Part shown: positions 3,001 through 56,843 of the stretch, one piece after another
Position numbering within the stretch: the first letter of the stretch is position 1
Layout: each line of letters opens with the position of its first letter
Assembly (NCBI GenBank): GCA_020974905.1
Contig: CP087563.1
Location: 1,116,001-1,180,000 of the forward strand
DNA length: 64,000 nucleotides
Direction of reading: 5' to 3'
DNA from: Planctomycetes bacterium syqfu
GTDB lineage: Bacteria; Planctomycetota; Phycisphaerae; Phycisphaerales; Phycisphaeraceae
Notes under the pieces: model-generated
Databases searched by the model: none
The model's input: the letters and a program-made list of their open reading frames with translations, nothing else
What the model was told of the DNA's origin: nothing
Made by a program: the position numbers and the translations under genes

Positions 3001-3624
3001 GTCAGCATTACCGTCTCAGGTACGAATGATGGCACCACCGCTGTGCCAAACCTGACACAAACCACTGTTGACCAGCCCATTGACATTGACGTATTGAGCA
3101 ATGACTTTGATAAAGACGGCGACACCGTTTCAGTTGCAGTTGTGGATCCGGTCAGTGAATTGGGTATCAGCCTGACCATCAATGCTGACGGCACAATTCA
3201 CTACGATCCGTCAATCGTCCTGGCATCATTGCCCGAGGGGACCACGGTTCGTGACTCATTCCGATACAACGTGACAGACCCCTACGGCCTTCAGGACCGA
3301 ACACGTGTCTTTATTGATGTCACAGCCAACAGTGTCAGCATCGCTTCGTTCTCTACAGGATCCAGCTCATTGCAAAGTACGGCCCCAACGTCACTGGCCT
3401 ACTCGGCTGGTGGTCTGGAAAATCTGATCCTCAACAACGGTTCAACCGGCAGTGGGGTCAATCAGGCAGCACTTGCATGGGCCAGTCAACAGGCCAGTCT
3501 CAAACCTGCTGCACCAGCCATGCGGCTTGGCAGCAACATCTGCTTATCGCAAAGCGGTGACGACAACGATTCGGACAACAATCTCAAACTGATTCTCGTC
3601 AGTGAAGATGTCGAGACCGAATAA
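1..3624 (+). CDS. Cadherin-like / tandem-95 repeat surface protein, 5' truncated
   Basis: The reading frame is open from base 1, so the N-terminus lies outside the window; the GTG at position 28 is not a real start. About the first 250 visible residues look like the end of a beta-helix or autotransporter-like passenger region (GGIVHVLDGTYTEDVTVDN and similar). After that, two repeat types alternate. Type A (about 100 residues, signature GSVINNGDGTFS then FTYKATDSHG) occurs five times, starting near residues 253, 463, 571, 791 and 898. Type B (about 110 residues, signature SINPDGT then DPYG) occurs three times, near residues 357, 686 and 1007. The last roughly 90 residues are non-repetitive and show no sorting domain that I recognise. 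Asp-rich loops fit calcium-stabilised beta-sandwich folds. By family this is an extracellular adhesin or cell-surface protein; the ligand is unknown. A strong terminator follows. Confidence 0.85.
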   Translation, partial: GGARNDANAVINRDLDDHVLDLSNNWWDTTDINQIVDLTYNLTSQGSENYAGLVDTSPFLESGTDTDLITPGFQGDFSALTAHVDSAQTTGNINEALSNVEAGGIVHVLDGTYTEDVTVDNGVTVAGSFDLDGTLSLTGSAQLLPGNSPGIVSTGDFSADSSSIIGIELDGADAGTGYDQIQVTGTVDITDATLDLSLNYLPSGEEFVIIDNDGSDAVIGAFDGYAEGSTFVLTDSVSGEEVEFTITYTGGDGNDVVLTTNEPPTANNVAINATEDGPAVLGNFDGADPNANDSLTYQLVDLPTNGTVINNNDGTFSYTAGDLPNLNNGETKQVTFTYKAVDNHGEESSLATVTVTVSGVNEIPDGPVAYLNGSVDNAFTTSDSDVDIDVIANDTGENLHVTRVDLTSDLGATVSINPDGTIHYEPGSVFDSYAPGQEILDYFRYDLQDPYGNGDTTRVNVWVTVVDAVNDAPVAENVAGNAVEDGPAVTLAFNADDQDSDDTPSSLTYSIVSSPSFGSVINNGDGTFSYTSGDLPELDFGENQQVTFTYKATDSHGLDSNVATVTITIAGQNEDSPENDAPIAMNVAGNVSEDGPAVTLAFDADDTDADDDPTTLTYTILSTPANGILINNGDGTFSFDPDGDFEALTLGQTQDVVFTYKATDSHGADSNTSTVTITVNGANEAAPQDNQGPSGSVDAFYIQADVVANLDVVANDTDPNNDVLHVQSLETLTSEAGVPLSINPDGTVRYNPNGFFDHLAPGETYRDTFRYTVADPYGLPDTTRVFVYVVGVDSSIPNAAPVANNINTSTSEDLSLSLFFDATDADDALASLTFNILSSPAAGSVINNGDGTFTFNPGADFQSLNDGQTDQVSFTYEVVDPHGATSNTATVTITINGANESTGENNAPIAQNVAGTAQEDGAPVNYNFNANDIDSDDDPTTLTYTILSSPSEGSVINNGNGSFTFNPGPDFQDLGIGQTREVSFTYKTTDSHGVDSNVATVSITVSGTNDGTTAVPNLTQTTVDQPIDIDVLSNDFDKDGDTVSVAVVDPVSELGISLTINADGTIHYDPSIVLASLPEGTTVRDSFRYNVTDPYGLQDRTRVFIDVTANSVSIASFSTGSSSLQSTAPTSLAYSAGGLENLILNNGSTGSGVNQAALAWASQQASLKPAAPAMRLGSNICLSQSGDDNDSDNNLKLILVSEDVETE

Positions 3625-3651
3625 AACGTCAATCTGACAACCACAACCAAC

Positions 3652-3684
3652 AAGGACACCGGCGGCAAAACCGGTGTCCTTTTT
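3652..3684 (+). terminator. Intrinsic terminator of the repeat-protein gene
   Basis: A perfect 11-bp stem (arms 3652-3662 and 3671-3681, core GGACACCGG/CCGGTGTCC) encloses an 8-base loop and runs into a T-rich tract. It lies 28 bases after the stop codon. Confidence 0.9.
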
Positions 3685-3772
3685 CTTTGCCAATCAATTC
3701 GATGTGTTATTTCAATGACGTTCCGATTCATAGAGCGGTTCAAAAAATGAATCTCCATACGACATAAACTTC

Positions 3773-3857
3773 ATCATTCTCCCGCACAGGCCCGAATCCC
3801 GTGGCAATCTGTGTGTACTTGCAACTTCCACTGGACTCCCCCTGCACGAAGTGGACG
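3773..3857 (-). repeat. Degenerate copy of the 85-bp REPIN-like element
   Basis: In reverse orientation this segment aligns along its whole length with the elements at 14109-14193 and 26595-26679. It keeps the central CTGTGTG and TTGCAA stretches and both GC-rich end palindromes in decayed form. Together with the terminator it accounts for the gap between the adhesin gene and the AraC gene. Confidence 0.6.
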
Positions 3858-3946
3858 ACGATGTATTTGAACTGCTCTAGCCGTGTTGGTCCCGCAGCAT
3901 GGGTTGCAACAATTCATCACCAGTCTCGTTAAAATCCCAAACCGTC

Positions 3947-4723
3947 TCACGGTATTTTCCGATAAGTCACCGGGGTGATCCCAAAGCGTTCGACGAAGCG
4001 TTTACAGAAATGACTGCGATCAAAAAAACCTGTATTTTCAGCCACTTTTTCAATGGACGCCGTCGAGTCACGCCGCAAGTGTCCTGCCGCTTCATCCAGA
4101 CGCATCTCAACAAATAGTGATTGCGGACTCTTGCCAACCACCTGCGTAAACCGTCGGATCATCGCTGCTTCACTCAGATGAACGAGTACCGCCAATTCAC
4201 GATTGCTGATCAGACGATGTGTGTTCTCCTGCATGAAACATAACAATGTGGCGATCCGTTCATCACGTTGCAGACTCGTTTGTTCATCAAAGGGCACGGA
4301 CATCAGGGCATGGTTAATCAACTTCCCCATCGTGAATTGGCCATGCAAACTGGTGTCAGAATCCGTAATCACCTGCCAGACTTTTCGCATCTGAGGCAGG
4401 GCTTTGAGCAACACCACCGCCCCCCGATGTAAATCCAATGGCATACCCAGCGAGAAATGAACAAACCCATGCTCCAATGGCCTGAGTAATTTTCGCGTCA
4501 ATGGCACATTGGGCGGCGTCAGGATCATTTGCTGTTGATCCGGCTCAAAACACTGGCCTTCCGACTCCCAGATCGCCCCTTTGCGACTTGTCCAATACAG
4601 CCGCCAGAACGGTCTGATGGGATACGACATCGGCCACCTTTCATAGTGATCAAAACCGACATCCTCAATTCGGATACGTTCATAGAGTTGCTTCAGAATC
4701 ACTCTCATGCAAGGAATATACAT
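3947..4723 (-). CDS. AraC-family transcriptional regulator
   Basis: This 258-residue protein has the AraC/XylS layout. A variable N-terminal sensing domain (about residues 1-150) contains a cupin-like stretch (PPNVPLTRKLLRPLEHGFVHF). A C-terminal double helix-turn-helix (about 158-258) has the classic second-helix motif ENTGFFDRSHFCKRFVERFG followed by TPVTYRK. It is transcribed divergently from the sulfatase at 4805 across an 81-bp spacer, so control of that sulfatase gene is likely (inference). No good Shine-Dalgarno decides between ATG at 4723 and an in-frame ATG at 4708. The effector is unknown, perhaps a sulfated sugar. Confidence 0.88.
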   Translation of the reverse strand: MYIPCMRVILKQLYERIRIEDVGFDHYERWPMSYPIRPFWRLYWTSRKGAIWESEGQCFEPDQQQMILTPPNVPLTRKLLRPLEHGFVHFSLGMPLDLHRGAVVLLKALPQMRKVWQVITDSDTSLHGQFTMGKLINHALMSVPFDEQTSLQRDERIATLLCFMQENTHRLISNRELAVLVHLSEAAMIRRFTQVVGKSPQSLFVEMRLDEAAGHLRRDSTASIEKVAENTGFFDRSHFCKRFVERFGITPVTYRKIP

Positions 4724-4804
4724 AAATCAACCAATCCTATCCATAGTGTCCCATGAACCAATAAACGATAATTCGACTTTATCTCAAGACAGGAAAGATG
4801 CAGC

Positions 4805-6577
4805 ATGTCCCAGCGACCCAATATCGTTTTCATTCTCACCGATGACCAGGGGTATGGCGATCTATCCTGTCATGGCAACCCGGTCCTCAAAACGCCCAAC
4901 ATTGACAAGCTCTACCAGCAGTCGGTGCGTTTTACGGATTATCATGTCGGCCCGACTTGTGCCCCAACACGTAGTGGTCTTTATACAGGCCATTTTGCAA
5001 ACTCCACTGGTGTCTGGCATACCGTCGGTGGCCGGAGTTTACTGCGTGGGAATGAAACCACCATCGCGGATGTCTTAAAAAATCACGGCTACCGAACCAG
5101 CTTGTTCGGCAAATGGCACTTGGGCGACAACCACCCCTATCGCCCCCAGGACCGCGGTTTTGAAACCGTTGTCTGTCATGGTGGCGGCGGCATCTCACAA
5201 GTCCCCGACCACTGGGGCAATGATTACTTCGATGACACCTACATGGTCAATGGTGTACCTAAATCCTTCAAAGGCTACTGCACGGATGTCTTTTTCGATC
5301 TGGCTAACGGCTACATCCGTGAACACCAGGATGAACCCTTTGCCTGCTTTATCACCTGCAATGCACCCCATGATCCGTACAACGTTGAGAAGCAATATTC
5401 GGATCTCTACCGCGATCAGACCAATCTCGACCGTGCTAACTTCTATGGCATGATCACCAACATCGATGAAAACATCGGAAAGCTTGATGCGTTACTCGAC
5501 GAACTGAATCTCAAACAAAACACCATCGTCATCTTCATGACCGACAACGGTACCAGTTGTACAACCCCCGATATGCACACCTGCGGACTTCGAGGCACAA
5601 AAAACAGTCCCTATGACGGCGGACACCGCGTGCCCTTCTTCCTGCGTTGGCCCGATGGTTCATTCCAAACCGGTCGTGATATCGATCAACTCACATCACA
5701 TGTCGACTTCATGCCAACCTTGATGGACCTTTGCGGGATTGATCTTGATGCCTACCAACATCTGAATTTCCATGGAAAAAGTCTCAAGCCCCTGATCACA
5801 TCCCCCAATAATCCATGGCAGGAACGCATCATCGTCACCGACTCACAGCGTCTACCCAATCCTGTGAAATGGCGTCAAAGTGCAGTCATGTCACAACGAT
5901 GGCGACTGATCAATGGCAGCGAACTCTATGACATCAATCAAGACCGTAGCCAAACCAATGACATCGCTGCGCAACATCCCGATATCGTCAACCAACTCCG
6001 CGAAGCCTACGAGGATTGGTGGGAGATTGTCTCCAAACAGTTTGCTGAAGATATCCCCATCAGTATCGGCCATCCCGATGAGCCGGAAACACGATTAACT
6101 GCTCACGATTGGCGCGACCCGGCGAACCCATATAGTGATGATCCTTTCGTCAAGGAGGACAACAGCTATCTCGTCTACAACCAGGGGCATATCCGCCGAG
6201 GAGAGGGCAAGAACGGTTACTTCGAAATCCATGTTGAACGCGAAGGACGTTACCGTTTTGAACTCCGACGCTGGCCCCGTGAAGAGGACATTGCGTTAAC
6301 CGATGGCATTGCTGAAAGCACCAACGGATGGCGGGCTGATGTCATCCACCCGCGACATCATTTTAATTACAGCGGCGGTGTGGCGATCCTGTTTACGCAG
6401 GCTCAAATTGAAATTGATGGCCAGGTCCACAAGCAGACACTGAAAGAGAACTGCCAGTTCGCCGCCTTCGAGCTATCACTCCAAACGGGAGATACATACC
6501 TGACCACAACATTCACCACGGATGATGACATCACACGTGGTGCGTATTACGTGTATGTCCGTTATCTGGGTGCATAA
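4805..6577 (+). CDS. Type I sulfatase, Cys-type
   Basis: This 590-residue arylsulfatase-fold enzyme hydrolyses sulfate esters. Visible catalytic features are the metal ligands in TDDQ (D13, D14), the formylglycine consensus C52-A-P-T-R56, GKWH (K103, H105), an APHD histidine near 189 and TDNG (D247, N248). The Cys-type core must be converted to formylglycine by a maturase, and none is encoded in this window. The last roughly 100 residues after the sulfatase fold form a beta-rich extension. There is no clear signal peptide, so it is either cytoplasmic or exported by another route. A purine-rich AGGAAAG lies just before the ATG. The gene stands alone and is divergent from the AraC gene. The substrate cannot be named from the sequence. 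Confidence 0.93.
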   Translation: MSQRPNIVFILTDDQGYGDLSCHGNPVLKTPNIDKLYQQSVRFTDYHVGPTCAPTRSGLYTGHFANSTGVWHTVGGRSLLRGNETTIADVLKNHGYRTSLFGKWHLGDNHPYRPQDRGFETVVCHGGGGISQVPDHWGNDYFDDTYMVNGVPKSFKGYCTDVFFDLANGYIREHQDEPFACFITCNAPHDPYNVEKQYSDLYRDQTNLDRANFYGMITNIDENIGKLDALLDELNLKQNTIVIFMTDNGTSCTTPDMHTCGLRGTKNSPYDGGHRVPFFLRWPDGSFQTGRDIDQLTSHVDFMPTLMDLCGIDLDAYQHLNFHGKSLKPLITSPNNPWQERIIVTDSQRLPNPVKWRQSAVMSQRWRLINGSELYDINQDRSQTNDIAAQHPDIVNQLREAYEDWWEIVSKQFAEDIPISIGHPDEPETRLTAHDWRDPANPYSDDPFVKEDNSYLVYNQGHIRRGEGKNGYFEIHVEREGRYRFELRRWPREEDIALTDGIAESTNGWRADVIHPRHHFNYSGGVAILFTQAQIEIDGQVHKQTLKENCQFAAFELSLQTGDTYLTTTFTTDDDITRGAYYVYVRYLGA

Positions 6578-6683: not shown

Positions 6684-6897
6684 TGTCTCTCCCGCGCAGG
6701 CGGGCGTCCAGTGGAACCTGCAAGTCTTTGCTGCATGCCACTCGTGGTTTATTGCAACTGTTATGAAGGGCATCATTCCAAGGAACCGAGCCAAGATGGC
6801 TCGGCTATTTGTACATAGCACGGCCATATTTGCCAGGTCTCAAACGCGACAATTCAACTGCAACGAATCACTAGATTCCCGCCTGCGCAGGAATGAC
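6684..6897 (+). repeat. REPIN-like element split by an inserted hairpin
   Basis: The left half of the 85-bp element (6684-6743, including CCCGCGCAGGCGGG) and its right half (6874-6897, GATTCCCGCCTGCGC) are separated by about 130 bp of unrelated sequence. That sequence contains the palindrome CCGAGCCAAGATGGCTCGG (6786-6804), a member of a second hairpin family. This fills most of the 348-bp gap between the sulfatase and glycosidase genes; I see no gene here. Confidence 0.6.
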
Positions 6898-14074: not shown

Positions 14075-14108
14075 AGCAAAACAATTCAATTCATTGTTCT
14101 CCACACTT

Positions 14109-14193
14109 CGTCACTCCCGCGCAGGCGGGAGTCCAGTGGAACTTGCAAGTTCACACAGAATGCCACTTGATTCCCGCCTGCGCGAGAATGACG
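14109..14193 (+). repeat. 85-bp REPIN-like element, intact copy
   Basis: The two ends, each about 30 bp, are imperfect inverted repeats, and each contains its own small palindrome (CCCGCGCAGGCGGG or its variant). A short spacer contains ACTTGCAAGT. It lies between the convergent ends of the GntR and oxidoreductase genes. It is collinear with 26595-26679 and, reversed, with 3773-3857. Confidence 0.75.
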
Positions 14194-14240
14194 ATATGAG
14201 AGACGGCACAAAGATTGATAGTTTGCGTTTTTTACAAAAC

Positions 14241-18511: not shown

Positions 18512-21500
18512 TCAATCTCCGAGCACGACCATGGCTTCACAAATGGAGTTCCAGTTATTCTGCGTGTTGCCGTTGCTGGTGATGCGGACATAACGTACAT
18601 CGACTTGATCAAAGCCAAAGAACTCCGGCTTGTCCTGCGGGGTGTCGCCGGAACTCTTGCCATCAAAGACCTGTTTCCAATTTTTGCCATCCAAGGAAAC
18701 GTCGATTTTGAAAATGGCTTGACGTCCGTTTGAACGATACCAGACGATGTCCATGCCCTTGACCGGCATGACGCGCCCCAGGTCCATGGCAAGTTCAATG
18801 CCCGTTCCCTGAGAAGCAAAGTACGTGCTGATATCACCATCTGCTGCATCCTCTGCCGGGTGTCCGATGTTGGGATGACTGGTGCGAATCCGACGGTAAA
18901 ACGGATAGCCTTTACGCCCCTCGGGGTAAGCATCCAAATAGACGGCATTACCCACGGATAACGCTTTGGGTTTCATTTGCAGGAAACCCGCGAGAATCTC
19001 CAGGGGGAGATTGACGTGATCGCCCTGCCATTTCAACGGTTCATCCAGTTCCATTTTCTGACCATCAATCCCGCAGTATGGTTTACCATTAAGGCAACGC
19101 AGTTCTGTGTTGTTGTGGTGAACCAAAAGCAGCTTGTCATTGAAGGTAACTTTGGCCCCCATGGCTTCAAACACCGGCAAAGCATCGACGAACGTTTGCT
19201 TCTCGCTAAAGATCAGCTCATTGACGGTGACGCGATTGCCATTGATGATCACACGCGGTGCCTGGAGCTTGCCGGTGTTCACCGGTTTGATATCGCTGTA
19301 ATCAGGCTTGTCGACATATGTGAATTTCTGGGGCTTGGCATGCAGCGTGTATTGGCCGAGTTGCAGTTGCAGGTATAGTGCGTTGTTCTCATTGGTGACC
19401 TTGCATTGATAGCCCTTCTTGTTGTCGGCCTTGGGTTTGAGATACCAGAGACCATGCTTTAAGCCGGTGAATAAAACCTTGCTGTTATCCGCGAGAACTT
19501 CAAATTCGATGGCATCATCAAGCATCACATCGGACTTGGGGAAGTAAACCTGCCAACCGTCGATGGCGACGCCGTCCACGTTTGCAGTCTTGATCGATTC
19601 CACCGCCTTGGTCTTGCCAAGTTCGCGGTCCATGATCTGCATGACATTGAAGAAGGTCGAAACGGACTGACCGCTACGGTCTTCCAGTTCGGTACGGTAG
19701 CCTTCGTTGAAGGGTGTGAGTGTGCCAGTACCGTGTTTGTTGATCTTGATGGGGAAGGTCTGATCGAAGACCGGGTTTTGCCCATCGGGTCCGCCGACAC
19801 AGCGTTTTTCGAGTTTGTCTACTTCTGGCAGTAACGTCTGGAGCACCATGCGCCCCGTGTCGTTTTCCAATGCAGCATCCACAATGAGTTGGCCTGCTTC
19901 GTCGGTGGGTTTACCCACGGTTTGGAGCAACCAGATTTTTCGCGTGTCCGGCTTGGAGGTGTGCATGCGATCGTAAACCAGCAGCGTTGCAGGACGGTTC
20001 GGATCATCCATATTCAGCGTCACAAAATGTCGCTGATAGGATTGCATCTTGGCACGATAGGCTGGGGTTAAATCCGTTCGCAGATAGCTGTACAGTGGCT
20101 TGACGGGATTGGGACCAAAATCGTGGCTGAGAATCGAGCCGGACTTGGCGTGTTCGAGCAACTGATCCAGTGTGCGGAATTCTTTGGCGTTGGCAGGGAA
20201 ATGCTGACCGCCGTCGTTCACACCCCTGTCGTAGGTTTCCGTCGGATCATAGGCGAGCATGGTGTTATGCGAGATGCTGCGTTTGTTGAAGTTCCAGTCG
20301 AACGGCGTGCCGTACTTGGGGTAGGCACCGGTGTCGATGGCTAAATGTCCGCGGTAGAAAATCTGAAACGCGCCTGCATCCAGATGTTGATGATTGTTAA
20401 AGTGATACCCAGCGCCTTTCATTTCGATGACCGCGACATCACTGTCCCGTCCCATCGTCCAACCGGTACGCGCGATCATGCCCCCCAGAGGTTCAGCAAA
20501 GAACTTGGTGGTGGGCAGTTCGTTCAAGTCCGCCGCTTTGATCGACGGATCATAAAACAGCAGAAACTCGATTGGATTGCTGCGGGCAAAACGGGTCACG
20601 CCACGACGTTGTGACTCAGCACGGAGATACGGGTCTTTGTAATAGTTGGAGACCTGCAGCAGCGCATCGAAAATGTTGTACGGCTTGCCCCCCATGTTAG
20701 TATCACCATCAATCAACGCTGAACCATCGGGGCAGGTGGCATAGATCCAGTGATAAGGCACCTTGCCCTGGTCAGCAGAATAAATGTCCTTGCCGACCAT
20801 GCGTTTGAAGATCCACGCGGAGTAGATTTCCCAATGGAATCGGTACGGGCCGTAGCCGATACCCTGGTGATGTCGGTGCGATGGGTAGAAGAAGTTTCGC
20901 GCTTCGATGAACTCAGCAAAGAGACGCCCTGCCACGTGGTGATACACGCTGGGATCTTCATCGTAAAACGCAATGGCTGCTGAGAGTTGATCACGTAAGA
21001 GTTGTGCTTCACCACCATGTCCGGTGATCGCACCCTGGCGGTATGGCGGGTAACGCATCTCCATGCGACCGGCCAGTTTTTTGGTCCTCGCGATGATGTC
21101 GCGTTTCTGCTCAGCCGTGAGTAACGGGTAGCACCAGTCATAGATCAAGCCGGTGGTGAAAATCACTGCACCATAATCACGCGTCACGTCATGACGTTTG
21201 CTAAACGTGGTGCGATGGAGCATTTCGATGTGTTGATCGACTGCGCTTTGGCCCATGAAGGTATCACCGTCAATGACATAGCGCATCGCCTGAGCGATTT
21301 GTGCGTTGAGTGTTGCGTTACTGAACTGATTGTCCTTGGGTAACGCAGCTTTATTGATGTCCGCTGCAGCATCGCAAATGGTCTTCCATGCCTGACGCAT
21401 AAATTCGTCCGAAGCAATCCGCTGCTTGAGGACCGGGATAAACTCCGGGGTGATCAACACACGCGGGTGATGATCCGGGGGCGTGATGTCCGGCATCGGG

Positions 21501-25656: not shown

Positions 25657-26241
25657 ATGTGGTTTGACCGTGCCCGTTTCGGACATCTCGACGACGATGC
25701 CTTTGAGGCATTGCACTTTTACGCCAAGCAGCAGGACGAGCAGAAGCCCCAAGCCTCTGAGTCGGACGAAGCGCAGATGACACCTGTCAAACGCGAGAAG
25801 TCCGAAAAACACGGCACGGATTCCGTCCTCAAACTCACCGATTTTGCGCACCTGAAAAAGTCCGGCAAGGCTGCCCGTCAAACCCCTTCCATCAAACCCA
25901 TCAAAGATCCCCACGACGGCCGTTGGGTGCTCGCGGTCCGTACCGCCGAGTCCATCCGACATGGGAAACTGGCGTCCGACAAACGTGCCCGACTACTCAA
26001 GCTCGGTAAACTCCTGGGCCTCAGTCCCATGGACAGTAACCGCATCATTTCCGTGATCGTCGCCCATGCGGACCGTGGCATTGCCCCCGCACAACTCACC
26101 CGTGAATCCTTCGCGGAACTACAGCAAACCACCCCGCCCCCGATGCGCTCCGTGGGCAAGGTCAACTGGATGATGGTCGCCATGTCCACGATCCTGCTGA
26201 TGCTCGTTGAATTCGCAGTGCTCTTTGCGTGGTTCAAATAA
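25657..26241 (+). CDS. Hypothetical protein with C-terminal membrane anchor
   Basis: The start is ATG 25657, preceded by TGGAGTG at good spacing; the longer frame from 25588 is not needed. The 194-residue product begins MWFDRARFGHLDDDAFEALHFY and has a charged, probably flexible middle. A small helical domain lies at about residues 85-150 (ESIRHGKLASDKRARLLKL, then LGLSPMDSNRIISVIVAHADRG). The C-terminal membrane helix is VAMSTILLMLVEFAVLFAWFK. It follows the preceding tail-anchored gene by 125 bp. The function is unknown. Confidence 0.75.
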   Translation: MWFDRARFGHLDDDAFEALHFYAKQQDEQKPQASESDEAQMTPVKREKSEKHGTDSVLKLTDFAHLKKSGKAARQTPSIKPIKDPHDGRWVLAVRTAESIRHGKLASDKRARLLKLGKLLGLSPMDSNRIISVIVAHADRGIAPAQLTRESFAELQQTTPPPMRSVGKVNWMMVAMSTILLMLVEFAVLFAWFK

Positions 26242-26332: not shown

Positions 26333-26437
26333 GAGCAAGACAATTTCTCACGCCAAGCCCGCAAAGTCGCAAAGAAAAACTCTCAATTTATCACTTGACG
26401 GCTCTGCGTCTTGAGCAAAGCTGGCGTGAGAATGGTT
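26333..26437 (-). repeat. Right copy of the roughly 103-bp inverted repeat
   Basis: This is the reverse-complement partner of 24498-24600. It ends exactly where the 140-bp hairpin element begins. Confidence 0.75.
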
Positions 26438-26576
26438 TATTGCATTTTTCACTCAAGTGTCGCGTCGACGTGTGACGCGAGAGCTGTCAGCTCACGGCTA
26501 TTGAATTGGTTTTTCATTGAAGACGCACGCAGACATGAGCGCGCCAGACGCTACATTTGAGTGAAAAATGCAATAA
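26437..26576. repeat. 140-bp MITE-like element with 30-bp terminal inverted repeats
   Basis: The arms 26437-26466 and 26547-26576 are complementary at 28 of 30 positions (outer sequence TTATTGCATTTTTCACTCAA). They enclose about 80 bp that contain further small palindromes (GACGTGTGACGCG, AGCTGTCAGCT). No coding frame is apparent. Confidence 0.7.
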
Positions 26577-26594: not shown

Positions 26595-26679
26595 CGTCAC
26601 TCCCGCGCAGGCGGTAGTCCAGTGATATTTGCAAGCGTCAACAGAATGCCACTGGATTCCCGCCTGCAGGGGAATGACG
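26595..26679 (+). repeat. 85-bp REPIN-like element
   Basis: It has the same length and order of motifs as the copy at 14109-14193: CCCGCGCAGGCGG, TTGCAAG, ACAGAATGCCACT, GATTCCCGCCTGC. The outer ends CGTCA/TGACG are complementary. Confidence 0.75.
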
Positions 26680-26770
26680 AAACTAAAACATCTGCCTTGA
26701 ATATCTGTGTTGATCTGTGGCAAAAATTGCCTTGAACACAGTTACTTTCGATATGAAACAAGCGTGACAC

Positions 26771-49906: not shown

Positions 49907-51586
49907 TTAACGGCGTGCAAAAAGGAATGTGCGATCGTCGGATTGCAGACGGTTGCCGGTGTAGGCATCGAGAATGTGATTCAGATGATCGGCTGCAACG
50001 TCTAGGGGTTGACCTTCACTGGACATGGCGATTTGTGCAAGATGATCGCCGAGCCGGATGGAGGTGAGCATCTTGCCGGACTGATCTTTGAGTTCGGTTA
50101 AGCCATCGGTGAACATGGCCAGGGTTTGACCACGTGCAAGGATGTCATCCGAGAGTTTGTATTCGACATCACGAATACCTAGCGGCTCATAGTCACCCAT
50201 TTCCAAAGGCCGTTTATTGCCTACGCTATCGAGCACCAATGGCGCAGGATGCCCCGCATTGATGAATTGCATCTGCCCTGTTTTAGGATCAAGTTCAACC
50301 AGTATCGCAGTCACAAAACGGTTGGCAGGCAGATACGCGATGAGGTGTCGGTTGAGCAGGTACGTGAGATTCAGCAGGTCCGCACCGGCTGCGGTGACAG
50401 CGTGGACCATCGTGTGCAGCGAGGAAGAGACCAGTGATGCGGGTAATCCCTTGCCACAGACATCCGCGACCACGAGCAGGACATGACCGTTGGGCAAATT
50501 GAGCACATCGACATAATCACCAGCGACCCAGCGACAGGGTTTAAAGCCGATGGCCACTTCCATGTCAGGCACCTTGATGCCATTGGGGACCAGGCGCATT
50601 TGAATATCACGCGCACGCTCAAGATCGATTTCGACCAGAGCATTCACCTTGGCCAACTTGCGATTCACCCACGCGGCTTCGGCTTGTTTGAAGTGTTCTG
50701 CTGCTAGTGAAGCCAGCGTCAACCATTCCTCGTTGGCAAAAGGTTGTTTGACCATCAGGTACATCAGCACCAATGCTTCTTCATCATTGCGGATCGGGCA
50801 TGCCATAGCTGCAAGGCGTTGATCACTACCATCGGTCTCTGACGGGCGCACCAGGGTGGGTTCCATACTGTTTTTACAGGCTTCGACCAACGCCTGCGTG
50901 ATGTAGAGTGATTGGGCATTACAACCGGCATGGACCTGAGGCACGCAAAGTGTCTGTGGTGGGCCGGGCTCTTTCTTGGAGATCATTAACACCACGCCGA
51001 CGTCTGCAGCAAAGTGTTCACTAACCATTAACTCACAGAGCAAACGCAGACGTTCACGTTGTTGCTCAGTGCGTTGCAGCGATTGGCTCATTTCCATGAG
51101 TTGGCTCAGGTGCAAGGCACTGATGCGCGAGGAACCGGTCTGACTTTGACGAAGCATGCTCAGGCCGGCAGCAGCATCTTCGGAACTATGCACCGCGACA
51201 ACCTGGCCTGCGATACTGGTCCCGCCGGAGGACTCCATGTTCTGGCTTGGCATGGTGAGGGTGAGTTTGCATTTGCCCAGTTCGACACAGTCGGCCAATT
51301 CGAGCATGCGTTCGGAAGTGCGAAAGCCGTTGACACGGGTCCCGTTGCTCGAACCCAGATCACGAATCCACCACCGTCCCCAACGATCGCAGTACAACTC
51401 CGCATGCTTGCGTGAGACGCTGGCATTGTTGATCTGCACATCGACTTCAGCCACGCGGCCGATGACGATGTTTTCACCAATCATGGGAAAGTGTCTAATT
51501 TGCCCGGACCCATCGTCAATTTCCAAAACACGATCGTAGGGTTCGATCGCGTTAAGCTGCGCAGGGACCGCAAATGCCTTAGCCAA
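49907..51586 (-). CDS. FHA-domain SpoIIE/RsbU-type protein phosphatase
   Basis: This 559-residue cytoplasmic signalling protein begins with an FHA phosphothreonine-binding domain (about 20-110: IVIGRVAEVDVQINNASVSRKHAEL, LGSSNGTRVNG). A GAF-like middle (about 160-335) follows. The C-terminal PP2C/SpoIIE phosphatase (about 345-559) has metal-site motifs VAGDYVDV, VADVCGKGLPASLV, INAGHPAPL, MFTDGLTEL and SDDRTFL. Such enzymes dephosphorylate anti-anti-sigma factors or similar partners. It is divergent from the receiver and sigma54-activator genes, which suggests a signalling block. No RsbV/RsbW partner lies nearby. Confidence 0.93.
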   Translation of the reverse strand: MAKAFAVPAQLNAIEPYDRVLEIDDGSGQIRHFPMIGENIVIGRVAEVDVQINNASVSRKHAELYCDRWGRWWIRDLGSSNGTRVNGFRTSERMLELADCVELGKCKLTLTMPSQNMESSGGTSIAGQVVAVHSSEDAAAGLSMLRQSQTGSSRISALHLSQLMEMSQSLQRTEQQRERLRLLCELMVSEHFAADVGVVLMISKKEPGPPQTLCVPQVHAGCNAQSLYITQALVEACKNSMEPTLVRPSETDGSDQRLAAMACPIRNDEEALVLMYLMVKQPFANEEWLTLASLAAEHFKQAEAAWVNRKLAKVNALVEIDLERARDIQMRLVPNGIKVPDMEVAIGFKPCRWVAGDYVDVLNLPNGHVLLVVADVCGKGLPASLVSSSLHTMVHAVTAAGADLLNLTYLLNRHLIAYLPANRFVTAILVELDPKTGQMQFINAGHPAPLVLDSVGNKRPLEMGDYEPLGIRDVEYKLSDDILARGQTLAMFTDGLTELKDQSGKMLTSIRLGDHLAQIAMSSEGQPLDVAADHLNHILDAYTGNRLQSDDRTFLFARR

Positions 51587-51916
51587 TTCGGATACCTCTT
51601 CCCGTACTTCGGAAACTCTCTCTAAGTCTAGTATCGGTATCGTACATCATCCTTCTTCATCCGAAAACGGAGAATATGATAAACCCGTGTTCGAGATGGA
51701 TTTTTCTTGACATCAAAAGACCCTGCGTTTACGTTTAACGAATCCAAAGGACTGGCTGAAACCTACCAAGCTGGTCGCCCACCTGCCCTGTGTTTGATAC
51801 ATTCTGGAGGATCCGGAAACCATCAAACATCCAACCGGGCGAATCGTCCAAGACGACGTTGTGACAGCTTTGACATTTAGATGACATCCGGGGGAACGAG
51901 GATAACCTTGTCAATT

Positions 51917-52095
51917 GCCTGTTTATTGGTCTTTGCAAGGAATATCCAACCCAGGATGCAGGACGGTCACGTGTCGGCCACCTTCCACGTGCCATCCTAG
52001 TTCACTACCATCCATCCGGTCGACACGTGACCGACCTGCATCCTGGGAGACCAACAGGCCAGATCAACCTGCCAAGCACTGGCCTGTGATTTTTT
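51917..52095 (+). ncRNA. Candidate structured RNA with 27-bp hairpin and terminator
   Basis: The arms 51950-51976 and 52021-52047 are complementary at 26 of 27 positions (outer CCCAGGATGCAGG) around a 44-nt loop. Weaker outer pairing (GCCTGTTTATTGGTCT at 51917 with AGACCAACAGGC at 52048) extends the stem. An 8-bp hairpin, CAGGCCAG (52055-52062) with CTGGCCTG (52079-52086), then a T6 run, acts as a typical intrinsic terminator. No coding frame fits. It lies in the 655-bp gap between the FHA phosphatase and receiver genes. It could be a small RNA or a leader-attenuator; a transposon relic is the main alternative. Confidence 0.5.
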
Positions 52096-52241
52096 GTGTG
52101 CAAACGCTAATTGCGGTTATCAGACATTTACGTCAAAGCGCTTTGACCTTAAACTGGTTAGATGATGCGAGCACGGTCCACATTGCATCTTGCTTTGAGA
52201 ATCAAATCAGTACCCTGGGATTGACCGGGTGAGAGTAAAGC

Positions 52242-52649
52242 ATGAGCCTTAAAAAAATCCTGATTGCAGATGATGAACCGAATATCCGCCTGCTGGTGCA
52301 AACGACACTGGAAGATGCTGATCGTCAAATGATCGAAGCCTGCAATGGCAACGAGGTCTTGGAACTGGCGCGCAAGCACGTGCCGGACCTGATTATTCTC
52401 GACTGGCTGATGCCCGGACTCCATGGGATTGATGTGGCTGCCCGACTTCGCTCGGAGCGCAAGACCGCACACATCCCCATCATCATGCTCACCTGCAAAA
52501 GTCAACCCGCTGACATGCAACAAGGACGCGAAGCAGGCGTGAGCACCTACCTGGTCAAACCGTTTAGTCCGATGGAACTCCTCGAACGTGTACAGGAAGC
52601 ACTTTCGTCATCCATGGACAACAACCTGCTTAACCAACCCAGCACATGA
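52242..52649 (+). CDS. Single-domain response regulator (receiver only)
   Basis: This 135-residue CheY-like protein has the acidic pocket IADDEP (D10, D11), phospho-acceptor Asp54 in IILDWLMPG, a Thr/Lys pair in IIMLTCK and YLVKPFSPMELLE. There is no output domain. GGGTGAGAG precedes the ATG. Its last 4 bases overlap the start of the NtrC-type activator gene, which itself lacks a receiver. The two may act as a split NtrC system, or this protein may be an intermediate receiver (inference). Confidence 0.93.
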   Translation: MSLKKILIADDEPNIRLLVQTTLEDADRQMIEACNGNEVLELARKHVPDLIILDWLMPGLHGIDVAARLRSERKTAHIPIIMLTCKSQPADMQQGREAGVSTYLVKPFSPMELLERVQEALSSSMDNNLLNQPST

Positions 52650-53929
52650 GTGAAGCCCACAAACCGTTGAAATTTGTCCAACCCCCGAACGAGGGTGGCG
52701 GTGATGCTTCGCATAATGAAGCTGCTATCAACGAGCAAATGGCTCAGCATCTCCAACTGCTTAACTCTCAGTTGGTCCTCTATGCAAGAGACTTTCGCAG
52801 ACTTGTCGATGACCAACAACGCAAAGATGACGAGCTTCGTGCCGTCAAACATCAACTCGACCAAGCCAATGAGCAGCTTAAGGACATGGAGCGTCAGTCC
52901 GCCAAGTTGCAGCGGAAGCGTGACCAATCCAAGCCCGATATCAGCGTCATCGGTCAATCCAAATCATTGACGCATATTCTCAAACTCTGTCAGCGTGTTG
53001 CCGTCTCCCAAACCACCGTACTCATCACCGGCGAAACAGGGACCGGCAAGGAACTGACCGCGCGCTTCATCCATCAACACTCCAACCGACATGACAAACC
53101 GTTTATCGCGATCAACTGCGGCGCATTACCTGAATCGCTGATGGAGTCCGAACTCTTCGGTCATGCCAAGGGCGCCTTCACCGGGGCCGATTCGGATAAG
53201 ACGGGGCTCGTGGAGCTTGCTGCTGGCGGCACGTTGATGCTTGATGAAATTGGTGAGTTGCCGTTGACGTTGCAGGTCAAACTCCTGCGTGTGCTTGAGG
53301 AGCGGACCTTCCGCAAAGTCGGTAGCGGCGTGGAAGTCGATGCGGATGTCCGTGTGATTGCAGCCACCAACCGTGATTTGAAACAGGAAGTCGCTGAAGG
53401 CCGGTTCCGGGCGGACTTGATGTATCGCTTGAATGTCTTCCCGATAGAACTCCCGCCCCTGCGCCAACGTCGCGATGACATCCCCCTGCTGGTGGAACAT
53501 TTCCTCTCCGAACGCCCGATGCAGTACAACGGGGAAGTGACCGTGAGCATGCCGGCCTTACTGGCACTCAAGCAGCATGATTGGCCGGGGAATATTCGAG
53601 AATTGCGCAATGTCCTGGAGCGTGCCGCATTGCTTTGTGATGCCGGTGTAATTGAAATGGACATGCTTGGCCCGGATTTTGCACCTGATTCTAATAATCC
53701 GACATCCGATCCATTGGCCCCGCCGGCAACCAACCATGATCCGGAGGCCCGAATGTCGACGACTGGGACCAAATCGGTCCTGGCGCAACAGGAAAGGAGC
53801 ATGATTGAAGCTGCATTAGAGCAGTCAAACTGGAACAAAGCCGCTGCAGCGCGTTTGCTGGGCATCAGTTGGGACAATTTGAGATACCGCATCAAGAAAT
53901 ACAAAATCAAGAAACCGACCGGGCAGTAA
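52646..53929 (+). CDS. Sigma54-dependent transcriptional activator without receiver domain
   Basis: This 427-residue protein has a coiled-coil N-terminus (about 28-95). The AAA+ ATPase core (about 98-330) has Walker A GETGTGKE (129-136), the sigma54-contacting GAFTGA (176-181), Walker B LMLDEIGELP and the arginine-finger segment RFRADLMYRLNVFPI. A linker and Fis-type helix-turn-helix (NWNKAAAARLLGISWDNLRYRIKKYKI) form the C-terminus. The protein remodels sigma54-RNA polymerase at -24/-12 promoters. It lacks a built-in receiver and is translationally coupled to a lone receiver gene. A sigma54 promoter lies at 63420, before a fliA-type gene, and is a candidate target. Confidence 0.96.
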   Translation: MSEAHKPLKFVQPPNEGGGDASHNEAAINEQMAQHLQLLNSQLVLYARDFRRLVDDQQRKDDELRAVKHQLDQANEQLKDMERQSAKLQRKRDQSKPDISVIGQSKSLTHILKLCQRVAVSQTTVLITGETGTGKELTARFIHQHSNRHDKPFIAINCGALPESLMESELFGHAKGAFTGADSDKTGLVELAAGGTLMLDEIGELPLTLQVKLLRVLEERTFRKVGSGVEVDADVRVIAATNRDLKQEVAEGRFRADLMYRLNVFPIELPPLRQRRDDIPLLVEHFLSERPMQYNGEVTVSMPALLALKQHDWPGNIRELRNVLERAALLCDAGVIEMDMLGPDFAPDSNNPTSDPLAPPATNHDPEARMSTTGTKSVLAQQERSMIEAALEQSNWNKAAAARLLGISWDNLRYRIKKYKIKKPTGQ

Positions 53930-54278: not shown

Positions 54279-56843
54279 ATGGTGTCCAGCGTTGAAGTCC
54301 GTTTTACTGAGAGAAGCAACTTGGCAACATTAAGTATCCAACAAACCCTGGCTAAAGCCTCGCGCATGGTCCAGCCTGATCACCAGAAAGCCCTCATCGA
54401 GCTCTCAGAAGTGGTCATCAAGGCCCAATCCATCGCTGAGTTACTCAACCAGACGGCTGCCTTGGCAGCAAGGACACTCTCTTGCCAACGTGCGGGGATT
54501 TTTGAACTGCGATCCGACGAAAAACTCGTCACCCTCCGCGCCGGCTTCGGTTGGGACAATGACCTGGTCGGTCAGGCAACGATGTGGGTTGCGCCCGAGA
54601 CACAGGTACTCAGTTCATTGCAGGCTTCTGAGCCGTCATTCGTCGCTAACTATACCAACGAAAACTATTTCGCCGCCCCACAGTTGCTCGTCGAACATGA
54701 TCTGGCAGCCAGTGGCATGGTGCCGATCCCGATGCCCGACCGCGCCTTTGGTGTGTTGATGGTTAACCATGCGACCGAGCATCCATTCTCCGTTGCTGAC
54801 CGCAGCTTCCTCACCGCCGTTGCTGACCTGCTTCAACCGGGCATTATCCGCCTGCGCCAAATGCAACTCGCTGAGTTCCAGGTCGATGGGTATCGCCTTG
54901 TGGGTCCCAACCAGGCTTTGCGTCCGTCACTGGAGCAAATCTGCCTGCGCGTCGAAAAACTCATCAACTCCGGCCAATGTGCGATCATGCTCTTTGAGCC
55001 ACAAAACCATCGCATTCGTTTGGCTGCGGGTCCGTCACTGGTGCCCACCCTCGCCCAGTCGCTTAACATCCTGCAGGTCGGTAAGGCCATGGATGTCGAA
55101 GCGATCGCTCAGCGTCATGGCACCCGTGCCTGCTGGTCGACCCCCATCTCCACCGAGCCCGGCTGCATGGTGGGGACGTTTGCGATCCTGCATCAGATCA
55201 ACGCACAACCAACATCTCATGAACTGCAAATCCTCGAAGCCGCATCGGAACTCACCGCTGCGGTTGTCCGACATGACATCCAACTCCGCCGCATCAAGCA
55301 TCATGAACAGATGCAAAAACAACTCGAACGTCAGATCGATGCAAGGTCCATCGAATTGCAAAGCACCATCGATCAACTTGAACGCGAAATCAGTCAACGG
55401 CGACAAGCTGAAGACCTGGCAAGGGGCGGAGAGGAGAGATACCGCGACCTGTTTGAGCGTTCCAATGACCTGATCCAGATCATCTCCCGTGAAGGCGATA
55501 TCCGTTTCGTCAATCGGGCCTGGCGTCAGGCGATGGGCTATGTCCCCAGTGAAGTCCAGCGGCTCAGCGTCTTTGACGTTGTGCCCCCCGCCTGCCGGAC
55601 CCGCTGGACGGAACTGCTTCGCCGCGTGTTCACCGGCGAGAATCTGGTGCGCGTCGAAACCGAGTTCTTCACCCGTGAAGGTAAAACGCTTGCTGTCGAA
55701 GGCTCACTGAGTCAAATCAACGAACCGGGACGCCCCCCTGCTGTCCGTGCGATTTTCCGTGATGTGACCGAAAGTAAACTCGCGGAAGAACAGCAGCAGA
55801 AATTCGTCTCACTGGTTCAAACCTCCAGCGACCTGATCATCATGGCAACCCACGATGGCAAAGTGCAATTCATCAACCATGCCGGCCGTGAACTATTGGG
55901 TATGACCCGCAGCCAACCGCTGGGCAACCTGCACATGTCCGACATTTACTCCGCGGGTACGTGGTCCAACTTCAAGTCCATCGTCTTGCCTGCCATCAAC
56001 GAGATCGGGAGATGGGAAGGCGAAGGCGCTGTCCGTCATCGCAGCACGCATAACCGCATCGACGTGCACATCAACGCCTTCACCGTCAAGCATCCGCGAT
56101 CCGGCGAATCGCTGTGTATTGCCACCGTCCAACGTGATATCACACAACGCAAAGAAGTCGACCGCATGAAGGACGAGTTGGTTGCCACCGTCAGTCACGA
56201 ATTGCGTACGCCGTTAACCAGTCTGCGTGGCTATGCAGAGTTATTGCTTTCGCGTGAGTTCCCCAAAGACAAACAGAACAAGTTCGTCAAGATCATTCAC
56301 GATGAAACGCATCGCTTAAACAAACTCATCAACGACTTTCTGGACATCCGTCGCATGGAGTCGGGCAATCAGTCCTACGACTTTACGCACCTGCAACTCG
56401 TGCCCCTGATTGAAGAAGTCCTGATGCATTTCAAGCAGACTGCTGGCAATTTCGATTGGCATGTGCAATTGCCCGATAGCTTACCACCTGTTTATGCCGA
56501 CCGCGATCGTATCCATCAAGTGATGACCAACCTGCTGTCCAATGCCGTCAAGTTCACCGAGCAAGGCAAAGGCATTGCCATCGGCGCCCGTCAGCAAGGC
56601 TCCAGCGTGGTCGTCTGGGTCAAAGACGAAGGACCGGGTATTCCCAAGTACGATCAAGCGAACCTGTTCGACAAGTTCTACCGTGCCACCGTCAGCGATC
56701 AGCACAAACTCCAGGGCAGCGGTCTTGGCTTATCCATCGTCAAGGAAATCGTCAACGCCCACGAAGGCCGCGTCTGGCTCGAATCCGAATCCGGTAAGGG
56801 CAGTACCTTCAGCTTCTCCCTGCCGACGGCAAGTATCGTCTGA
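54279..56843 (+). CDS. Sensor histidine kinase with GAF and PAS domains
   Basis: This 854-residue protein is probably cytoplasmic, as no membrane helix is seen. Two GAF-like domains (about 40-190 and 205-335) come first, then a coiled coil (about 340-390). Two PAS domains follow (about 392-510: RYRDLFERSNDLIQIISREGD; about 515-625: FVSLVQTSSDLIIMATHDGK), with a PAC-like IATVQRDITQRKEVDRMKDE. HisKA carries His640 in TVSHELRTPLTSLRGYAELL, and HATPase motifs are NLLSNAVKF, DEGPGIP and GSGLGLSIV. It follows the lone receiver and the sigma54 activator, which are its likely partners. The start at 54279 has no clear ribosome site. Confidence 0.95.
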   Translation: MVSSVEVRFTERSNLATLSIQQTLAKASRMVQPDHQKALIELSEVVIKAQSIAELLNQTAALAARTLSCQRAGIFELRSDEKLVTLRAGFGWDNDLVGQATMWVAPETQVLSSLQASEPSFVANYTNENYFAAPQLLVEHDLAASGMVPIPMPDRAFGVLMVNHATEHPFSVADRSFLTAVADLLQPGIIRLRQMQLAEFQVDGYRLVGPNQALRPSLEQICLRVEKLINSGQCAIMLFEPQNHRIRLAAGPSLVPTLAQSLNILQVGKAMDVEAIAQRHGTRACWSTPISTEPGCMVGTFAILHQINAQPTSHELQILEAASELTAAVVRHDIQLRRIKHHEQMQKQLERQIDARSIELQSTIDQLEREISQRRQAEDLARGGEERYRDLFERSNDLIQIISREGDIRFVNRAWRQAMGYVPSEVQRLSVFDVVPPACRTRWTELLRRVFTGENLVRVETEFFTREGKTLAVEGSLSQINEPGRPPAVRAIFRDVTESKLAEEQQQKFVSLVQTSSDLIIMATHDGKVQFINHAGRELLGMTRSQPLGNLHMSDIYSAGTWSNFKSIVLPAINEIGRWEGEGAVRHRSTHNRIDVHINAFTVKHPRSGESLCIATVQRDITQRKEVDRMKDELVATVSHELRTPLTSLRGYAELLLSREFPKDKQNKFVKIIHDETHRLNKLINDFLDIRRMESGNQSYDFTHLQLVPLIEEVLMHFKQTAGNFDWHVQLPDSLPPVYADRDRIHQVMTNLLSNAVKFTEQGKGIAIGARQQGSSVVVWVKDEGPGIPKYDQANLFDKFYRATVSDQHKLQGSGLGLSIVKEIVNAHEGRVWLESESGKGSTFSFSLPTASIV

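Follow-up and report, generated by a model that had tools for sequence, protein, structure and literature searches.

The window, the whole stretch of 64,000 nucleotides analysed here, comprises bases 1116001–1180000 of a one-contig genome of 7.38 Mb (G000). It contains a gap of 655 bp (51587–52241), provided that the upstream FHA gene starts with the TTG at 51586; with this start and the Pfam matches of the neighbouring proteins, the location of the gap between signalling genes, as originally described, was confirmed. The upstream gene (49907–51586, minus strand) encodes a protein with FHA and SpoIIE phosphatase domains (Pfam FHA, SpoIIE) and is divergent from the RNA described below. Downstream of the RNA, on the plus strand, follow the genes for a single-domain response regulator (52242–52649; Pfam Response_reg), an NtrC-type sigma-54 activator without a receiver domain (52646–53929; Pfam Sigma54_activat and HTH_8, no match to Response_reg) and a GAF/PAS histidine kinase (54279–56843; Pfam GAF, PAS, HisKA, HATPase_c).

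The gap holds a long hairpin, P4 (51950–52047, plus strand), whose 30-nt arms (51950–51979 and 52018–52047) enclose a loop of 38 nt (51980–52017). The arms are 93% complementary and form 28 Watson-Crick pairs, one G·U pair and one A·A mismatch (51963/52034). Leaving out the G·U pair gives 27-nt arms (51950–51976 and 52021–52047) that contain one mismatch and lie 44 nt apart, exactly the stem and loop that the original prediction had specified. The outer extension of the stem that it also proposed, TTGGTCT (51926–51932) with AGACCAA (52048–52054), is present in the window and carries one mismatch in the sister species G001. Directly behind P4, sequence and fold predict an intrinsic terminator (52054–52095, plus strand) with a run of six T residues (52090–52095), as proposed, although the stem has 9 bp (52054–52062/52079–52087) and not 8. 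A generic terminator scan, with a loop limit of 8, reported no terminator here; the loop of this one is 16 nt long. The predicted fold of 51880–52120 has an energy of −102.85 kcal/mol, compared with a mean of −70.1 kcal/mol (s.d. 5.28) for shuffled sequences (z = −6.2), and none of 200 shuffles was as stable.

The locus was compared with the other three genomes of the genus (G001, G002 and G003) and with a more distant member of the family (G019); the contigs taken to carry it are PAIY01000087.1 (G001), JAESSU010000167.1 (G002) and JAJRRC010000070.1 (G019). The FHA–SpoIIE protein has orthologues in G001 (97% identity), G002 (78%) and G019 (62%). In two of the three other genomes of the genus, G001 and G002, the hairpin occupies the same place between the divergent FHA–SpoIIE and response-regulator genes. 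In G003, close orthologues are lacking both for the FHA gene (best match 33% identity) and for the activator, and neither of our two RNA models (P4 and P1–P3, see below) matches. Across the four genomes of the genus, RNA and gene module are thus present or absent together.

The arms and loop of P4 are conserved to different degrees in the two sister species. Window and G001 are identical over the 93 bases 51951–52043, the longest identical run in 6.9 kb of alignment, while the flanks are 78% (5′) and 83% (3′) identical, the neighbouring genes 89–96%, and the FHA gene 71% at its third codon positions. The same alignment contains other identical runs, of 79–89 bases, within neighbouring genes or at their starts, so part of this identity could stem from local exchange between the two lineages. 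G002 is more distant from the window: the proteins of the locus are 72–86% identical and large parts of the intergenic DNA can barely be aligned. The arms of P4 remain there; of the loop, only ATCCATCC is unchanged.

Beyond these species, the arm pattern was found in three of 301 genomes of the order and in no stretch of the viral collection. The P4 model (E ≤ 0.01) matched four of the 301 genomes, namely G000, G001, G002 and, weakly, G012. The G012 hairpin (E = 0.006) lies right behind a gene that we read as aconitase-like and was taken as a chance match. A model of the upstream helices P1–P3 matched the same three genomes, all of one genus, among 51 genomes of the family and among 400 of the order. 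Because filtering was stricter in the model searches and only some of the initial candidates were scored, weak relatives may have gone unnoticed. Within the genomes searched, the RNA is thus a candidate for a new family of a familiar kind that is restricted to one genus.

G019 shares the divergent gene arrangement, and its gap holds AAGGAACGGTCAGGG...CCCCTGACCTTCTTTTTTT, a terminator hairpin with a T7 run about 60 nt before the response-regulator gene (L047, ~465–560 of the reverse complement of 3001–5060). The model searches found neither P1–P3 nor P4 in this genome. The GGTCA/TGACC hairpin of the terminator might be what is left of the P4 arms, and the gap may hold a different or strongly diverged RNA; homology being uncertain, G019 was left out of the models.

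Long inverted repeats are also a hallmark of mobile elements, and the original prediction had asked for a search of the arms against the genome. Both P4 and the whole RNA returned only self and arm-to-arm matches in the entire genome (E ≤ 0.001), and P4 is present once, at the same place, in each of the two sister species; the worry about a mobile element was not borne out. A sample of 464 kb, made up of the window and twenty 20-kb samples of the 7.38 Mb genome, contained 12 long hairpins including P4. At least four of the other 11 belong to repeat families: of the six that were compared for copies, BLAST placed four in two repeat families with further copies in the 464 kb, and the remaining two resemble one another by eye in their arms. 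Long hairpins as such are thus not unusual in this genome; what stands out is one that is single-copy and conserved. The existence of such families is what speaks for regarding P4 as a decayed MITE- or REP-type hairpin without function, and like P4 their members are long, near-perfect inverted repeats. The two families tested, however, have several to many copies and P4 does not; it is, moreover, better conserved than its flanks, with compensatory changes in its arms (see below). We therefore consider an origin as a decayed mobile hairpin very improbable, and P4 is not one more copy of the repeat hairpins of this genome.

Two of the repeats in the sample can be described here. An element of 140 bp at 26437–26576 of the window, with terminal inverted repeats of 30 nt (TTATTGCATTTTTCACTCAAGTGTCGCGTC), represents a MITE-like family and is found at five places in the 464 kb, in both orientations (near full-length relatives L104, L112 and L111, 92–94%; L097, 77%). 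A REP-like hairpin (CTCCCGCGCAGGCGGGAGTCCAGTG ...) occurs in the window at 3771–3848, 6685–6725, 6869–6897, 14108–14194 and 26595–26680; it has many copies in the 464 kb, including a cluster in L096 (~19109–19313).

Conservation in the sister species extends beyond the hairpin. The original prediction had confined the unit to 51917–52095, which is probably too short, as the conserved unit starts about 200 bases further upstream. At its upstream end lies a promoter-like site on the plus strand (51707–51735), in which TTGACA (51707–51712) and TACGTT (51730–51735) are separated by a 17-nt spacer. TTGAC, the 17-nt spacer and TACGTT are common to the window, G001 and G002, and between window and G001 the site is part of a block of 43 identical bases; at the corresponding place, the G019 gap has TTGACA and TAGCCT, again 17 nt apart. 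The −10 hexamer matches the consensus weakly, at three of six bases, and an automated promoter scan did not list the site at 51707–51735.

Between the promoter-like site and P4, three further helices are predicted on the plus strand. P1 (51750–51776) pairs GACTGGC with GCTGGTC; its six counted pairs are kept in all three sequences, across which two positions changed on one side. P2 and P3 together span 51784–51841: P2, formed by TGCCC (51784–51788) and GGGCG (51837–51841), encloses P3 (51790–51798/51822–51830). All five P2 pairs and the three basal pairs of P3 are kept in the three species. The tip of P3 carries AGGA in every one of them, with the GGA (51809–51811 in the window) unpaired each time, and the joints are rich in C (CCCACC, or ACACACC in G001, and CCAACC). 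In the lowest-energy fold of the window sequence, GGGC takes a shifted partner that displaces P2; the G001 and G002 sequences form P2. From the promoter-like site, the conserved helices P1–P4 and the terminator, we infer an RNA that probably starts about 7 nt after the −10-like hexamer and ends at the T-run. As these two elements are taken as its ends, the RNA would span ~51742–52096 on the plus strand.

A check for covariation in relatives, as originally suggested, was run on G001 and G002. With the identical P4 rows of window and G001 counted once, the 24-pair core of P4 is represented by two distinct sequences, in which 47 of 48 cells are standard pairs. In G002, four pairs have changed on both sides and still pair, two have changed on one side and one is broken; the A·A mismatch is kept. 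Sliding the partner strand lowers the pairing to 22–39%. Owing to the small number of sequences, 37 of 500 shuffles also attain the observed pairing, and the covariation in P4 is therefore suggestive, not overwhelming. In P1, P2 and basal P3, all 42 cells are paired, four one-sided changes included, compared with 29–43% in the slid controls. The shuffle control has no power for these helices (500 of 500 reach the observed value), and they were picked from folds of these same sequences, a selection that favours their pairing. Secondary structure is thus conserved through sequence change in both parts of the RNA, within the limits of two to three distinct sequences.

The changes also distinguish the strands. 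Seven varying positions form a G·U pair on the plus strand and an A·C mismatch on the minus strand, and the reverse case does not occur. Three of them are in P4, two in P1 and one each in P2 and P3. Choosing the plus-strand fold biases the count for P1–P3; P4 forms the same helix on either strand, and there the plus strand is preferred by three to none.

These observations bear on the possibility that the inverted repeat acts as DNA, either as a pair of operators, each arm having CACGTG at its centre, through which a local regulator would control the divergent genes, or as a cruciform. The location between divergent genes would suit such an element, CACGTG occurs three times within 62 bases, and the 13 bases of the upper arm, GGTCACGTGTCGG, are identical in all three species. 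Separate operators would, however, not need the compensatory changes seen in the lower arm; in addition, the loop is identical to G001 as well, and the wobble pairs favour one strand. Sites resembling the arm (up to one mismatch) were counted in five genomes and compared with a reversed control, giving 13 and 10 in G000, 10 and 4 in G001, 4 and 1 in G002, 9 and 13 in G003, and 6 and 3 in G019; the first three counts include the hairpin's own two sites. An operator regulon was rejected for want of a clear excess in these five genomes, although such a comparison would overlook a regulator that binds nowhere else. Taken together, we regard a DNA element as improbable.

The lack of coding potential that had been claimed was upheld, as the reading frames differ between the species: apart from a few codons of the 5′ arm, no frame of similar length and sequence occurs in all three. 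One frame could be read as a conserved short peptide, starting with ATG at 51956 and running for 14 codons through the 5′ arm and loop, and the same 14-codon frame exists in G001. In G002, by contrast, the frame starts with GTG, has 25 codons and encodes residues that are unrelated beyond the arm; inspection by eye showed no suitably spaced ribosome-binding site, and the changes in the arm are better explained by pairing. That the conserved product is a peptide is accordingly hardly credible. The original argument for an RNA product over DNA symmetry alone is strengthened by the compensatory changes, the G·U pairs on the plus strand, the promoter-like site, the single copy and the lack of a kept reading frame, and the gap very probably encodes a conserved structured RNA on the plus strand.

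The claim that this RNA has its own terminator fared less uniformly. The terminator is intact in the window and not conserved in either sister species: its region is 74% identical to G001, where the stem is broken and TTTTG replaces the T-run, and G002 has no T-run. Among the three congeners it is thus intact in the window only, and G019 has a different hairpin. This bears on whether the same RNA could instead be a 5′ leader: transcription would run from the site at 51707 on into the response-regulator/NtrC operon, whose first gene begins at 52242, with the hairpin and terminator as an attenuator or an RNase III processing site. The RNA is on the same strand and directly upstream of the gene, the broken terminators in G001 and G002 make read-through plausible, and the terminator of G019, about 60 nt before the gene, leaves little room for a separate promoter. 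The terminators of these three genomes are the main reason why a leader stays a serious rival.

Other features of the gap speak against a leader. In the window, 146 nt separate the T-run from the response-regulator gene, and this interval contains a perfect 16-bp palindrome, GTCAAAGCGCTTTGAC (52132–52147), that is identical in G001 and was not seen in the G002 gap. The palindrome is a possible operator of a separate promoter for the response-regulator gene; its identity in G001 and its position between terminator and gene suggest such a promoter in the window species and G001. A leader might also be expected wherever the gene pair occurs. In G005 the regulator and activator genes are paired, with no FHA gene directly upstream, and neither the arm pattern nor the P1–P3 model matches; this genome did not extend the alignment, and stretches of G034 and G027 contributed nothing to the comparison. 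Attenuator leaders combine an intrinsic terminator with an alternative, anti-terminator pairing. The locus resembles them in that its terminator lies behind a promoter-like site and ahead of a gene, but differs in that no clear anti-terminator partner is visible by eye and that the terminator is not conserved in G001 and G002. On balance, we consider it slightly more likely than not that the gap encodes an independent plus-strand regulatory RNA, about 350 nt long; to the operon leader we assign a real but clearly smaller chance.

As an independent RNA, it would be transcribed from the TTGACA-17-TACGTT site, starting near 51742, and would fold into P1, then the P2/P3 unit with its GGA-tipped hairpin and C-rich joints, and then P4. 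In the window species, transcription would stop at the terminator at 52054–52095, and the RNA would be independent of the response-regulator mRNA. P4 might protect the 3′ end or serve as an RNase III site. The RNA could act in trans, through base-pairing of its unpaired C-rich stretches with mRNAs, through a protein partner, for example CsrA, or in both ways. It is probably one of the outputs of the adjacent signalling genes. A more specific proposal is that of a new, lineage-specific signalling RNA, its expression coupled to the module of FHA phosphatase, response regulator and sigma-54 activator, and acting both through one CsrA-type hairpin of high affinity, at the P3 tip, and through the C-rich strands and the P4 loop. 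We put this forward as an unlikely reading; if true, such an RNA would link phospho-signalling to CsrA control in planctomycetes.

Several classes of known RNA resemble parts of this picture. Qrr RNAs, encoded beside luxO, are bacterial trans-acting small RNAs located next to a regulator gene. Like them, the RNA described here is intergenic, contains stem-loops and an intrinsic terminator, and lies next to a sigma-54 activator gene. It differs from the Qrr type in its sigma-70-like promoter-like site, its greater length with a 30-bp hairpin and its lack of an Rfam match; a script found no sigma-54-type site in 51501–52300. CsrB/RsmY-type RNAs bind CsrA through several unpaired GGA motifs in hairpin tips. 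In each of the three species the RNA likewise displays a GGA at the end of a hairpin, but has one unpaired GGA per RNA.

Rfam gave no match in the window at the gathering score; for 51600–52260 it gave five sub-threshold hits, all on the minus strand, four of them to families of microRNA precursors. Among the papers listed by a literature search, no title or opening of an abstract described this locus. Rhodopirellula-1, like the RNA here a candidate structured RNA of the phylum, is listed as a motif for Planctomycetes (PMC2864571). As the available text of that source gives the motif no Rfam number, the Rfam searches may not cover it. Few non-coding RNAs have been catalogued in planctomycetes: a table in a 2022 review has 8 distinct small RNAs in the PVC group as a whole, compared with 345 in Proteobacteria (PMC9029176). 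A conserved, single-copy structured RNA that is fixed to a signalling module offers a concrete starting point for testing RNA-based control in planctomycetes.

The exposed C-rich strands, which include CATCCATCC in the P4 loop in addition to CCCACC and CCAACC, suggest a model in which they pair with purine-rich start regions of mRNAs. Five RNA segments were compared with 299 start regions, a small sample from the 464 kb (genome size 7.38 Mb) in which starts had been assigned by a simple ribosome-site rule, and showed no enrichment over shuffled segments (28, 24, 3, 26 and 21 of 40 shuffles were at least as extreme). The third segment, with three of 40, does not stand out after five tests. In this limited comparison, the loop that had been predicted to be free for base-pairing thus showed no enrichment for translation start regions. 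The best single duplex was with the gene at 25657.

GGA motifs are not enriched in the RNA, as 16, 68 and 75 of 100 shuffles reach the observed count in G000, G001 and G002, respectively. With one well-exposed GGA per RNA, at the tip of P3, a CsrB-like sponge was not supported; a single CsrA site at this tip is possible. CsrA genes are present in all four genomes of the genus. The window's own genome has three CsrA-family matches (G000:C1, at ~6241613, 326865 and 5209691), one of which lies inside an open frame of 213 aa.
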